Assembly (NCBI GenBank): GCA_026002935.1
Contig: BPGH01000001.1
Location: 2,219,965 to 2,283,964, forward strand
Direction of reading: 5' to 3'
Length of the DNA: 64,000 bases
Source: Acidimicrobiia bacterium
GTDB taxonomy: Bacteria > Actinomycetota > Acidimicrobiia > IMCC26256 > PALSA-610
In this document: positions 32,242-36,627 of the stretch, piece by piece
Layout of the letters: each line of letters opens with the position of its first letter
Position numbering within the stretch: position 1 is the stretch's first letter
Notes under the pieces: model-generated
Told to the model about the DNA's origin: nothing
The model's database searches: none
Seen by the model: only the letters and a program-made list of their open reading frames with translations
Translations under genes and position numbers: made by a program

Positions 32242-33009
32242 TCAGCTCACCGGCCTCCGGGCTCGGGTGCGGCCGAGCACCACGGGCACCTCGGCGGGAT
32301 GCGGCAACGGCGCCGACCCGCTCGCGAGCCGCGCGTCGAGGTACTTCGCGACCTCCTCGTAGACGGCGTCGCCGAGCATCGCACGCAGCTCGGTCTCCAT
32401 CGACTTGTACACCGGCTCGTGCGCGGTGAAGGCCTCACGCGCCTCGGTGCACCACCAGGCGAACTCCTCGCCGCCCTCGCCCCAGCCGTCGCGGGAGAAC
32501 TCGGTGAGCACCGTCGTGATCGACCCGTCCTCCTCCTCGCGCTCGACCGCACGCAACGGGAGCTGCCAGCACACCGTGGGCTTGGTCTCGCTGAAGTGCA
32601 GGCCCCGGTTGAGCGCGTGGAGGTGCAACGCACAGCCCGGCCCGGCCGGGAAGCCCGTGCGGTTCAGGAAGATGCACGCGTCCTCGTGCAGCCGCGTGCG
32701 CCACTCGTCCCTGCCGACCTTCGCCCACACGCCCTTCTTGGCCCCGATCCGGCGGAACTGCCACTCGTCGTCGGTGAGCCGCCGCGCGAGCTTCTCGACC
32801 TTCGCCTTGTCCTTCTTGTCGGACGCGTGCGCCCCGTAGGAGCAGCAGCCGTGCACGAGCTCGGGCGCGGGCTCCGTCAGCACCCCCTGGCACCCCTGCC
32901 CGAAGATGCACCGGTACGAGGACGCGAGGAAGGTGACGTCCACCTGCCACTGCCGCTTGTCCTTCCCGGGGACCGGGACGGTGATCCACTCGCGCGCGGG
33001 AGCCGGCAT
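32242..33009 (-). CDS. cysteine-rich protein, DUF3109-like, function unknown
   Basis: 255 aa. The N-terminal half has a cysteine cluster: YRCIFGQGCQG, HGCCSYGAH, DACIF and GPGCALH, then TVCW and WWC. This spacing could hold an iron-sulfur cluster or zinc, as in CxxCxxCC/YkgJ-like families. KKDKAKVEKLARRL is a basic helix. No signal peptide. I chose the ATG at 33009 because a TACCCT -10 box lies 8 bp upstream; a TTG at 33051 would extend it by 14 residues. Confidence 0.6.
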   Translation of the reverse strand: MPAPAREWITVPVPGKDKRQWQVDVTFLASSYRCIFGQGCQGVLTEPAPELVHGCCSYGAHASDKKDKAKVEKLARRLTDDEWQFRRIGAKKGVWAKVGRDEWRTRLHEDACIFLNRTGFPAGPGCALHLHALNRGLHFSETKPTVCWQLPLRAVEREEEDGSITTVLTEFSRDGWGEGGEEFAWWCTEAREAFTAHEPVYKSMETELRAMLGDAVYEEVAKYLDARLASGSAPLPHPAEVPVVLGRTRARRPVS

Positions 33010-33017
33010 GCCCGGCG

Positions 33018-33023
33018 AGGGTA
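33018..33023 (-). promoter_or_regulatory. -10 box (TACCCT) for the Cys-rich gene
   Basis: On the minus strand it ends 8 bp before the ATG at 33009. Confidence 0.5.
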
Positions 33024-33038
33024 ATCGGTCGGGGTCGG

Positions 33039-33044
33039 TAGGCT
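33039..33044 (+). promoter_or_regulatory. -10 box (TAGGCT) for glcD
   Basis: It ends 6 bp before an in-frame ATC at 33051, the proposed non-standard start of glcD. Its TAG is also the in-frame stop that bounds the glcD frame. Confidence 0.5.
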
Positions 33045-33050
33045 GCGCCA

Positions 33051-34475
33051 ATCGCGACCGATGCGCTGCTCGAAGACCTCCGGCGTGTGCTCGGCACGGC
33101 GAACGCGACTGCCGAGCCGCTGGAGCTCGCGCTCTACGCGAGGGACGCCGGGGTTGCCGAGGGTCACGCCGTCGCGGTCTGCTGGCCCGCCACCGGTGCG
33201 CAGCTCGCCGCCGCGGTACGCGTCGCCCGTGCGCACGGGCGGCCGTTCGTCGTGCGGGGCAGCGGCACCGGTCTCGCCGGCGGCGCCACCCCGCTCGGGG
33301 ACCCGGTCGTCATCGTGACGACGCGCCTCGACCGGATCCTCGAGGTCGACGCGCGGTCGCGGGTCGCATGGGTCGAACCCGGGGTCCTCAACCTCGACCT
33401 GTCGCGCGCCGTGCGGCACCTCGGCCTGCACTACGCGCCCGACCCGTCGTCGCAGCAGGCGTGCACGATCGGCGGCAACGTGGGCACGAACGCCGGGGGG
33501 CCGCACTGCCTCGCGTACGGGGTCACGAGCGCCCACGTGCTCGCGGTCGAGGTGGTGCTTCCCGACGGCGAGGTGGCGCTGCTCGGCGGGCTGGCGCCCG
33601 ACGAACCCGGCTACGACCTGCGGGGGTGCTTCGTCGGCTCGGAGGGGACCATGGGCGCGGCGACGCGCATCGCGGTGCGCCTCACCCCCGACCCCCCGGA
33701 GGTCGCGACGATGCTGTGCGCGTTCGCCTCGGTGGAGGACGCGGCGGCGACCGTCAGCGAGACGATCGCGTCCGGCGTCCTGCCGGCGGCGCTCGAGATG
33801 ATGGACGCGCCGATCACCCGCGCGGTCGAGGACTTCGTGGGTGCGGGCTACCCGCGCGACGCGCAGGCGGTGCTCCTCGTCGAGGTCGACGGGCTCCCGG
33901 CGGGGGTCGCCGAGCAGGCGGCGCAGGTCGAGGCGATCGCGCGTGCCCACGGCGCGACCGCGGTGCGCACCGCGGCCGACGAGGCGGAGCGCGCGCTGCT
34001 GTGGAAGGGCCGCAAGTCGGCGTTCGGCGCGATCGCACGGATCGCACCCGACTACTACCTGCACGACGCGGTCGTGCCGCGCACCCGCCTGGTCGAGGTG
34101 CTCGGCGAGATCGCACGCATCGCCGCGGCGCACCGGCTGCTCGTGATGAACGTGTTCCACGCGGGCGACGGCAACCTCCACCCGCTGATCGTGTTCGACG
34201 GGCGCGAGCCCGGCACCTGGCAGCGGGTGCGCGCGGCGGGCACCGCGATCCTCGAGGCCTGCCTCGACGCCGGCGGTGTCCTCACCGGCGAGCACGGGGT
34301 CGGCGTCGAGAAGCGCGACCTGATGCCGCGGCTGTTCGGTCCCGACGACCTCGACGCGCAGGCCCGCCTGCGCGACGCCTTCGACCCCGACGGCGCCGCG
34401 AACCCGATGAAGGTGCTCCCGCGGGGGAGCCGCTGCGGGGAACTGCAGCGCGTCCCGGAGGGCACGTGGATCTGA
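33051..34475 (+). CDS. glcD: glycolate oxidase FAD subunit (GlcD-like)
   Basis: 474 aa if started at ATC 33051, 462 aa from GTG 33087. FAD-binding (PCMH) domain: RPFVVRGSGTGLAGG, CTIGGNVGTNAGG, GSEGTMGAATRI. The C-terminal oxidase domain has NVFHAGDGNLHP and GEHGVGVEKRDLM. It oxidises glycolate or D-lactate with GlcE and GlcF. The residues ALLEDLRRVLG before the GTG match the usual N-terminal helix of GlcD, so the true start is upstream. There only ATC (33051) and CTG (33066) exist before the in-frame stop, and ATC sits 6 bp after a -10 box. Confidence 0.9.
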   Translation: MATDALLEDLRRVLGTANATAEPLELALYARDAGVAEGHAVAVCWPATGAQLAAAVRVARAHGRPFVVRGSGTGLAGGATPLGDPVVIVTTRLDRILEVDARSRVAWVEPGVLNLDLSRAVRHLGLHYAPDPSSQQACTIGGNVGTNAGGPHCLAYGVTSAHVLAVEVVLPDGEVALLGGLAPDEPGYDLRGCFVGSEGTMGAATRIAVRLTPDPPEVATMLCAFASVEDAAATVSETIASGVLPAALEMMDAPITRAVEDFVGAGYPRDAQAVLLVEVDGLPAGVAEQAAQVEAIARAHGATAVRTAADEAERALLWKGRKSAFGAIARIAPDYYLHDAVVPRTRLVEVLGEIARIAAAHRLLVMNVFHAGDGNLHPLIVFDGREPGTWQRVRAAGTAILEACLDAGGVLTGEHGVGVEKRDLMPRLFGPDDLDAQARLRDAFDPDGAANPMKVLPRGSRCGELQRVPEGTWI

Positions 34476-35467
34476 CGCCGTTGCAGGAGGCGGTCGCGTC
34501 GGCCCGCACCGTCGTGGCGGTGGGGGCGCGCACGCAGTGGCGGATCGGCGAGCCGGTCGCGCCGGACGCCGCCGTGGTGCGCGCCCCGGCCGGGGTCGTG
34601 CGCCACGAGCCCGCGGACATGACGGTCACGGTCGGAGCCGGCACACCGTTCGGGGACCTCGACCGCGTGCTCGCGGCCGCCGGGCAGGAGTGCCCGCTCG
34701 ACCCGGCCGACCCGCGGGCGACCGTCGGCGGCGTCCTGGCGGCCGGCCTGTCGGGGCTGCGCCGGCTGCGTCTCGGCCCGCTGCGCGACCTGGTGCTCGA
34801 GGTGCGGGTGGTGCTCGGCGACGGGCGGGTCGTGAAGGGCGGGGGACCGACGGTGAAGAACGTGACCGGCTACGACCTGCCGCGCCTGTACGTCGGGTCG
34901 CTCGGCACGCTCGGCGTCCTCGCGCAGGTGACGTTGCGGTGCCGGCCGCGCCCGACCGTGTCGCGCTGGTGCCGCGCGCCCGAACCGCCGCCCGCCGGCA
35001 CGCGGCCGTCCGCGGTGCTGTGGGACGGCGAACGGGTGCAGGTGTGCTTCGAGGGGGTCCGGGCGGACGTCGACGCGCAGTGCCGGGGGCTCCCGGAGAT
35101 CGACGGGCCGGTGCTGCCCGCCGGCGCCCACCGGGGGCGGATCTCGGTCCCGCCGGGCGCGGTCCGCCCGCTCGCCGCGTCGCTCGCGGCACTGCGCGGG
35201 CTGCGGTGGTGCGCACAGCTCGGCGTCGGCACCGTGCACGTCGCGACCGACGACGTGCCCGCGCTGGTCGCCGCGCGAGAGGCCGCGCACGCGCACGGCG
35301 GGTGGCTCCTGTGCGAGCAGGGGGCGCCGGGTCTCCCCGCGTTCGGCCGCCCGCTGCCGAACGCCGCGCTGATGCGGCGCGTCAAGGACGCGTTCGACCC
35401 CGACGGCAAGTTCGCGCCCGGGCGGCTCCCCCTCGCCGGGGCCCCGGCGGCCGGGGCGCGCGCGTGA
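34466..35467 (+). CDS. glcE: glycolate oxidase FAD-binding subunit (GlcE-like)
   Basis: 333 aa. A shorter PCMH FAD fold: VTVGAGTPFGDLDRVL, DPRATVGGVLAAGLSG, VKGGGPTVKNVTGYDLPRLYVGSLGTLGV. The end FDPDGKFAPGRLP is family-typical. It is thought to bind a second FAD in the GlcDEF complex. GTG start overlapping glcD by 10 bp; the stop overlaps glcF (GTGA). Confidence 0.9.
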   Translation: MDLTPLQEAVASARTVVAVGARTQWRIGEPVAPDAAVVRAPAGVVRHEPADMTVTVGAGTPFGDLDRVLAAAGQECPLDPADPRATVGGVLAAGLSGLRRLRLGPLRDLVLEVRVVLGDGRVVKGGGPTVKNVTGYDLPRLYVGSLGTLGVLAQVTLRCRPRPTVSRWCRAPEPPPAGTRPSAVLWDGERVQVCFEGVRADVDAQCRGLPEIDGPVLPAGAHRGRISVPPGAVRPLAASLAALRGLRWCAQLGVGTVHVATDDVPALVAAREAAHAHGGWLLCEQGAPGLPAFGRPLPNAALMRRVKDAFDPDGKFAPGRLPLAGAPAAGARA

Positions 35468-36627
35468 GCGGCCCGCTGCGCCTCGACCCGGACGGCCTCG
35501 TCGCCTGCGTCGCGTGCGGGCTGTGCCTGCCGCACTGCCCGACCTACCGCGTCACCGGGCGCGAGATCGCCTCGCCGCGCGGCCGCATCGCCGCGATGCG
35601 GGCCGTCGAGGCGGGCGCGGCGCCCGCCGACGATGCGTTCGTCCGGGCGATCGACGAGTGCATCCAGTGCCGGGGCTGTGAGGCCGCGTGCCCGTCGGGG
35701 GTGCCGTTCGGGCACCTCGTCGAGGCGACGCGCGCCGCGCTCGGGCCGGTCGGGCCCTGGTGGCGCCGCGCGGCCGAGGCCGTCGCGCTCCGGCTCCTGG
35801 CGCCCCGGCACACCCTCCTCGTGGCCGCGACGTGGGTGCTGCTCGCCGCCCAGCGGCTCCGCCTCGTGCCGGCGCGCCTCGGCCTCCCGAGACTGCGCGC
35901 CGCCTCGCTGCGCCCGCTCGACCTGCCCGCGGGCGGGTCGCCCGACGCGTGGCTCTTCCCGGGATGCGTGATGGACGCATGGATGCGCGACACGCACCGC
36001 GCGGCGGCGCGCGTCATTCGCGCGACCGGCGCGGTGGTCGCCAGGCCGGGCGCCGGCGCGGACTGCTGCGGTGCGCTCCATCTCCACACCGGCCGCATTG
36101 CGCTCGCCCGCCGCCTCGCGGCGCGCGTCGTCCGTTCGATGCCGGGCGACGCGCCGGTCGTCGTCGACAGCGCGGGGTGCGGCGCGGTCATGAAGGACTA
36201 CGGCCGCCTGCTCGGGACGCCCGAGGCGGGCGCGTTCGCGGCGCGGGTGCACGACTTCTCCGAGTGGCTCGCGACGCGCCCGCCGCCCCCGGTCGCGCGC
36301 ACGGGCCGCACCGTCGTCGTGCAGGACCCGTGCCATCTCCGGCACGTGCAGCGGGCCCACGGCGCGGTGCGGTCCGTGCTGCGCGACGCGTACGAGATCG
36401 TCGAGACCGACGACGACGGGCTGTGCTGCGGCGCCGGCGGCCTCTACGCGGCCACCCGGCCGGCGCTCGCGTCGGCAGTGCGGGACCGGAAGGTCGCGGC
36501 GATCGGCCGGGCCGCGCCCGGCGCGGTCGTGGCCTCCGCGAACCCGGGGTGCACGATGCACCTCCGGGCCGCCGGGCTCGACGTGCGCCACCCGGCCGAA
36601 CTGCTGGCGGAGGTGTTGGATGGCTGA
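35464..36627 (+). CDS. glcF: glycolate oxidase iron-sulfur subunit (GlcF-like)
   Basis: 387 aa. Two [4Fe-4S] ferredoxin motifs, CVACGLCLPHCPTYR and CIQCRGCEAACPSG, feed electrons on. Two CCG (heterodisulfide-reductase-type) domains follow with the ligands PGCVMD...ADCCGALHLH and DPCHLRHVQ...LCCGAGG. A hydrophobic segment (TLLVAATWVLLAAQRL) may sit at the membrane, which would let the complex reduce quinone. Start by GTGA overlap with glcE. Confidence 0.92.
   Translation: MSGPLRLDPDGLVACVACGLCLPHCPTYRVTGREIASPRGRIAAMRAVEAGAAPADDAFVRAIDECIQCRGCEAACPSGVPFGHLVEATRAALGPVGPWWRRAAEAVALRLLAPRHTLLVAATWVLLAAQRLRLVPARLGLPRLRAASLRPLDLPAGGSPDAWLFPGCVMDAWMRDTHRAAARVIRATGAVVARPGAGADCCGALHLHTGRIALARRLAARVVRSMPGDAPVVVDSAGCGAVMKDYGRLLGTPEAGAFAARVHDFSEWLATRPPPPVARTGRTVVVQDPCHLRHVQRAHGAVRSVLRDAYEIVETDDDGLCCGAGGLYAATRPALASAVRDRKVAAIGRAAPGAVVASANPGCTMHLRAAGLDVRHPAELLAEVLDG

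Follow-up and report, generated by a model that had tools for sequence, protein, structure and literature searches.

We propose that translation of glcD in this Acidimicrobiia genome begins at an AUC codon, at position 33051 of the window (the whole 64,000-nucleotide stretch of DNA analysed here), with a probability of about 0.87. Sequence comparison indicates that this start is kept across families of the order and is neither a mutation nor a sequencing error: among 36 genomes of the order, 29 carry ATC at the equivalent place, whereas a canonical codon (ATG, GTG or TTG) is available in 62 of 63 genes from outside it. The position of the codon relative to the promoter suggests that the glcD mRNA would be leaderless.

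The glcD locus and its promoter

Read from the ATC, glcD (33051..34475, + strand) encodes 474 residues, and the frame is open across the entire gene. The product contains the FAD_binding_4 domain (PF01565), which begins at residue 42, and the FAD-oxidase_C domain (PF02913), and it matches the solved glycolate oxidase 9qgz with an E value of 6.5e-72. These two domains, together with adjacent GlcE- and GlcF-like genes, identify it as the FAD-binding subunit of glycolate oxidase. Matches to the NCBIfam GlcD models fall short of the cut-off scores (TIGR00387, 458.7 of 567.9 bits; PRK11230, 467.7 of 897 bits), and glycolate is therefore the likely, but not the certain, substrate. Downstream, the glcE-like gene (34466..35467, +; PF01565) starts with GTG and shares 10 bases with the end of glcD. 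The gene for the glcF-like iron-sulfur subunit (35464..36627, +; PF02754 and Fer4 families) also starts with GTG and shares 4 bases with the end of glcE. On the opposite strand lies a divergent gene (32242..33009, -) that matched no family in a Pfam search and appears leaderless from its upstream sequence (TACCCT-N8-ATG). The short region from 33009 to 33051 accordingly holds two leaderless-type promoters, with -10 boxes about 15 bp apart: TAGGCT on the + strand (33039-33044) and TACCCT on the - strand (33018-33023).

An in-frame TAG at 33039-33041, inside the putative -10 box TAGGCT, closes the glcD frame upstream. From there to the GTG at 33087..33089 (codon 13), the first canonical codon in the frame, there is no ATG, GTG or TTG; a CTG is present at 33066. 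The ATC at 33051..33053 follows TAGGCT by 6 bp, and its A would be the first transcribed base. Each of these landmarks is as the original prediction had described it. No Shine-Dalgarno sequence is present before the ATC, and a promoter scan found neither a sigma-70 consensus promoter nor a -35 consensus for glcD.

The same prediction held that a 6-bp spacing between a -10 box and a leaderless start is used elsewhere in the window. We analyzed 864 kb of the host genome (G000), consisting of the window and 40 further stretches, by collecting the coding frames that follow TAnnnT at each spacing. The share of frames initiated by ATG or GTG peaks at 6-8 bp (53 of 81 at 6 bp, 38 of 60 at 7 bp and 27 of 49 at 8 bp) and tails off at 9 bp (12 of 78) and 10 bp (8 of 60). 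At spacings of 0-5 and 11-15 bp, only 0-3 such starts occur per spacing. The 6-8 bp range contains 118 distinct ATG/GTG starts, 16 of them within the window, as well as 3 CTG and 2 ATC starts. Leaderless starts are common in this genome, the claim about spacing holds, and glcD, with TAGGCT-N6-ATC, falls within the preferred range.

ATC itself is not enriched at these spacings (2 of 190 frames at 6-8 bp versus 6 of 395 at 10-15 bp and 1 of 376 at 0-5 bp); at other spacings, it is mostly an internal codon beside a canonical start. A genome-wide habit of leaderless ATC starts was considered and rejected, given 118 ATG/GTG starts versus 2 ATC starts in 864 kb. In 200 kb from each of four other genomes, ATC at 6-8 bp was found at glcD in G002 and G001, at one internal codon in G005 and nowhere in G021. 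The scan applies coding-score cut-offs and misses genes: glcD was lost at a stricter setting, and the glcD of G005 was missed. Because ATC is not enriched in the genome scan, the case for glcD rests on conservation; one genome could not settle it.

Conservation of the proposed ATC start

A search of 58 genomes of the order identified an ortholog with an E value of 1e-150 or better in 34. Together with a copy cut by a contig end (G013) and one in pieces (G030), this gives 36 readable glcD genes, one per genome. Relatives show 68-82% protein identity to the host copy. At the place equivalent to the host start, TAnnnT-N6/7-ATC is present in 29 of the 36, the host genome included, a comparison that favors the predicted reading of a leaderless ATC start. 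By comparison, 56.8 kb of flanking sequence, counted on both strands, contains 2 matches to the motif. The ATC is in frame in all 29 genes and out of frame in none, despite six different distances to the domain anchor (28, 29, 30, 31, 33 and 41 codons). As the aligned rows were picked for ATC, the invariance of that column is no evidence, and the unbiased figure is 29/36.

The other seven genes have ATG at the exact spot (L007), ATA with an ATG two codons later (L014), GTG (L015 and L170), TTG (L058) or a start that is not clear (L031 and L032). Thirty-one genes carry an ATN triplet at the spot: 29 ATC, one ATA, one ATG and no ATT. A relative with ATG or GTG at this position had been named in advance as a sign that the host codon is a mutation or an error. 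Such a relative exists in L007, yet with ATC in 29 of 36 genomes the mutation or error is not borne out. The glcD of L170 (G030:C1:2448500-2451500) appears to lie in three pieces in different frames, through either disruption of the gene or faulty assembly.

For a wider view, we compiled 99 rows, 36 from the order and 63 from outside, after removal of 15 duplicate contigs; L166 and L167 duplicate L055 and L058, and L169 is truncated by a contig end. Of these rows, 96 entered a tree built by a quick method, with L165, L169 and L170 dropped as short. The order forms a single clade (SH-aLRT 96), and every one of the 27 ATC rows in this tree falls within it. The start label needs 6 changes on this tree, of which 3 are forced by well supported branches, a pattern that would fit one gain followed by several losses. 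Outside the order, where the presence of a canonical codon rather than the start itself was scored, 62 of 63 rows have such a codon 20 or more codons ahead of the anchor; in the remaining one (L068), the only canonical codon found adjoins the anchor. Three marine rows from outside (L064, L065 and L067) have ATC at leaderless spacing, but with an ATG immediately after it.

In many of the relatives, the reading frame offers no usable canonical start. In 26 of the 29 ATC-bearing relatives, the open frame upstream of the ATC contains no canonical codon; L019 has a GTG directly before the ATC. Downstream, a canonical codon occurs within the first 8 codons in six ATC relatives (L009, L011, L016, L017, L027 and L168) and at codon 12 in L006. 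It is absent before codon 13 in 22 of 29, from codons 2-20 in 16 of 29, and before codon 43 in 11 of 29, so the ATC is kept in relatives without a usable ATG, GTG or TTG. In an alignment of 25 GlcD proteins, a start at codon 43 would lose the invariant residues L10, L28, Y29, D32 and G38 and the beginning of the FAD domain. The alignment with 9qgz begins at query residue 6, which corresponds to residue 4 of 9qgz, placing the N-terminus of that protein close to the one given by the ATC start. Two other solved relatives, 8jdc and 3pm9, have about 11 extra N-terminal residues.

Base composition also bears on where the protein begins. In codons 2-5 after the ATC, the GC content at the three codon positions is 0.72, 0.51 and 0.76, and the excess of GC3 over GC2 has a p value of 6e-5 (4e-5 after removal of five near-duplicates). 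In the five codons above the -10 box, the values are 0.57, 0.70 and 0.56, and 9 of the 145 codons are in-frame stops. The coding signature begins directly after the ATC.

These observations bear on three other accounts of the locus. Translation could start at GTG 33087, with the ATC serving as a mere transcription initiator of a short-leader mRNA. In favor of this account, the host gene has no canonical codon ahead of that GTG, but we regard it as very improbable. A start there would remove the invariant L10 and the nearly invariant L6, in agreement with the earlier argument that it would cut off an N-terminal segment. Many relatives have no canonical codon in codons 2-20, or even before codon 43, and a noncoding leader would not be expected to hold ATC in frame in every case over six lengths or to show GC3 above GC2 from codon 2 onward. 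Still less credible, to the point of being negligible, is a mutation, assembly error or pseudogene confined to the host. Its genome is a draft of 4 contigs and 85% completeness, but the ATC recurs in genomes from separate assemblies and the host frame is fully open. A somewhat better chance, though still a small one, belongs to an mRNA that has a leader with the AUC internal to it, which would make only the word leaderless wrong. The 5' end is deduced from the promoter, for which no -35 consensus was found; against a leader stand the lack of a Shine-Dalgarno sequence and the TAnnnT located 6-7 bp before the ATC, within the 6-8 bp range of the 118 host ATG/GTG starts. We therefore favor initiation at AUC 33051.

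Other putative noncanonical starts and the initiation machinery

The sole other ATC at a spacing of 6-8 bp in the host genome scan belongs to a gene for a DtxR/IdeR-type regulator outside the window (L119:13812-14513 = G000:C1:713812), with the domains Fe_dep_repress, Fe_dep_repr_C and FeoA. Its upstream sequence reads TAAGTT-N6-ATC, in which the TAA is an in-frame stop, and no canonical codon occurs in the next 40. Fifteen genomes matched this gene, 13 of them with a 5' end (L179, L184 and L185 are without one). An in-frame leaderless ATC at a spacing of 6 or 7 bp is present in 11 of the 13, the host included, and absent in L173 and L181. In 6 of the 11 loci (L172, L174, L175, L176, L177 and L186), however, a canonical codon is found 3-7 codons further down, and the distance from ATC to the domain is constant at 11 codons. 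Because of these nearby codons and the invariant distance, the dtxR-like case is weaker than that of glcD. Upstream of the gene are also TTGACT and an imperfect palindrome, TTTTGGGGTTCCAAAA, the latter a candidate for its own operator.

The trpC gene of the host provides a contrast. It has a CTG at the conserved start place, in the context TACAAT-N8-CTG (L202:13175 = G000:C1:2143175, outside the window). Among 29 relatives, 27 have ATG, GTG or TTG at that codon, two (L255 and L259) have an ATG 8-9 codons upstream, and none has ATC. Judged by these relatives, the trpC CTG appears to be an isolated case, in contrast to glcD.

We also analyzed infC, the gene for the start-codon proofreading factor IF3, at 30 loci (L164 and L277-L305) out of 57 matches. 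In 28 of the 30, a Shine-Dalgarno sequence is followed by ATC (19), CTG (4), ATA (3) or ATT (2); the other two are L290, which is cut at a contig end and whose context reads CTG, and L303, which is without the motif. In the host, infC starts with CTG. At three of the ATC loci (L292, L293 and L295), a GTG and an ATG also stand in frame two to three codons upstream, within the Shine-Dalgarno region. With ATC at 19 of the infC loci, AUC apparently functions as a start codon in the order.

The initiator tRNA looks ordinary. ARAGORN, run on 30 of the 46 tRNA loci, identified three Met-CAU genes and one Ile-GAT gene, and among these 30 loci no unusual initiator tRNA whose anticodon would read AUC was seen. 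One of the Met-CAU tRNAs (L156) we take to be the initiator from its appearance, so that an ordinary initiator-type tRNA with a CAU anticodon looks to be present.

Proposed mechanism and relation to known systems

Based on these observations, we suggest the following model. With 6 bp separating the -10 box from the gene, the glcD mRNA would begin at the AUC or about one base from it, as judged from the promoter. Translation would then begin on an AUC at or next to the 5' end. The initiator fMet-tRNA, with its CAU anticodon, would pair with the first two bases, A and U, leaving a mismatch at the third, and the initiating residue is presumably fMet. Since glcE and glcF overlap their preceding genes, the output of all three genes could depend on this one start, and a weak AUC start could throttle glcDEF as a whole. 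A weak start in the dtxR-like gene would hold its repressor at a low level.

The most likely purpose of such a start would be a built-in low initiation rate that can be tuned by IF3. IF3 discriminates against noncanonical starts and represses them; infC itself has a rare, IF3-repressed start, ATC in Streptomyces and ATT in E. coli (PMC5472188). Raised IF3 also inhibits some leaderless mRNAs in E. coli (PMC9031893). By analogy with these cases, a leaderless AUC start may be tunable by IF3. More tentatively, and with somewhat less than even confidence, we put forward AUC as a third class of leaderless start in the order, deliberately kept in a handful of genes (glcD and the DtxR-type regulator) as an IF3-tuned throttle. 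If this is true, these genes, doubly disfavored by IF3, would see their translation rise when ribosomes outnumber the available IF3 or when 70S ribosomes build up, and glycolate oxidation and metal regulation would be tied to the state of the translation machinery.

The AUC start may also be real but lack regulatory meaning, being a tolerated weak start that became fixed a single time in an ancestor and persisted through inertia. This account concerns the purpose only and is compatible with initiation at AUC; we consider it doubtful, though not to be dismissed. In its favor, the ATC rows fall in one clade, with 6 changes of start label on the tree, 3 of them forced by well supported branches. 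Set against it are the deep divergence of the genes, across which 29 of 31 ATN triplets are nevertheless ATC and none is ATT, the same start in a second gene, and the fact that ATG is just one base change away.

Rare starts and leaderless starts are each known. In the passages of open-licence papers examined, we found no leaderless AUC start and no conserved AUC start that combines the two, which does not prove their absence from print. One of these papers describes an ATG-to-ATC mutation (PMC10210955). As gene finders rely on ATG, GTG and TTG, their models of glcD and the DtxR-type repressor are probably truncated or given the wrong start in genomes of this kind.

The infC gene resembles glcD in having AUC as a conserved start (PMC5472188), a feature that extends to the ATC, ATT, ATA and CTG starts of infC in the order. 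It differs in that a Shine-Dalgarno sequence precedes the infC codon, including in the order, whereas glcD, a metabolic gene, has none and looks leaderless. Streptomyces sigR is likewise an actinobacterial gene with a conserved noncanonical start, the first of an overlapping pair, in which the weak start limits output and is repressed by IF3 (PMC5472188). Its start codon, however, is GTC with an extensive ribosome-binding site, and it is not leaderless; the authors of that study saw no evidence for it in other genera of actinobacteria (PMC5472188). In the archaeon Staphylothermus marinus, an ATC start was inferred from alignment for ribosomal protein L12ae, a single archaeal gene described with no mention of leaderless initiation (PMC2678158). 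The leaderless AUG and GUG mRNAs of actinobacteria share with glcD the lack of a leader (PMC9031893) and, as measured here, a -10 box just before the start. The start codons named in the available part of that review are AUG, GUG, UUG and CUG, with no mention of AUC; non-AUG codons are described as weak on leaderless mRNAs in E. coli, and GUG as working in some actinobacteria (PMC9031893). A conserved leaderless AUC would contradict the view, based mostly on E. coli, that a leaderless mRNA must start with AUG, or with GUG in some actinobacteria (PMC9031893), and glcD would offer a natural system for the study of how the ribosome recognizes a start without a Shine-Dalgarno sequence or full codon-anticodon pairing.
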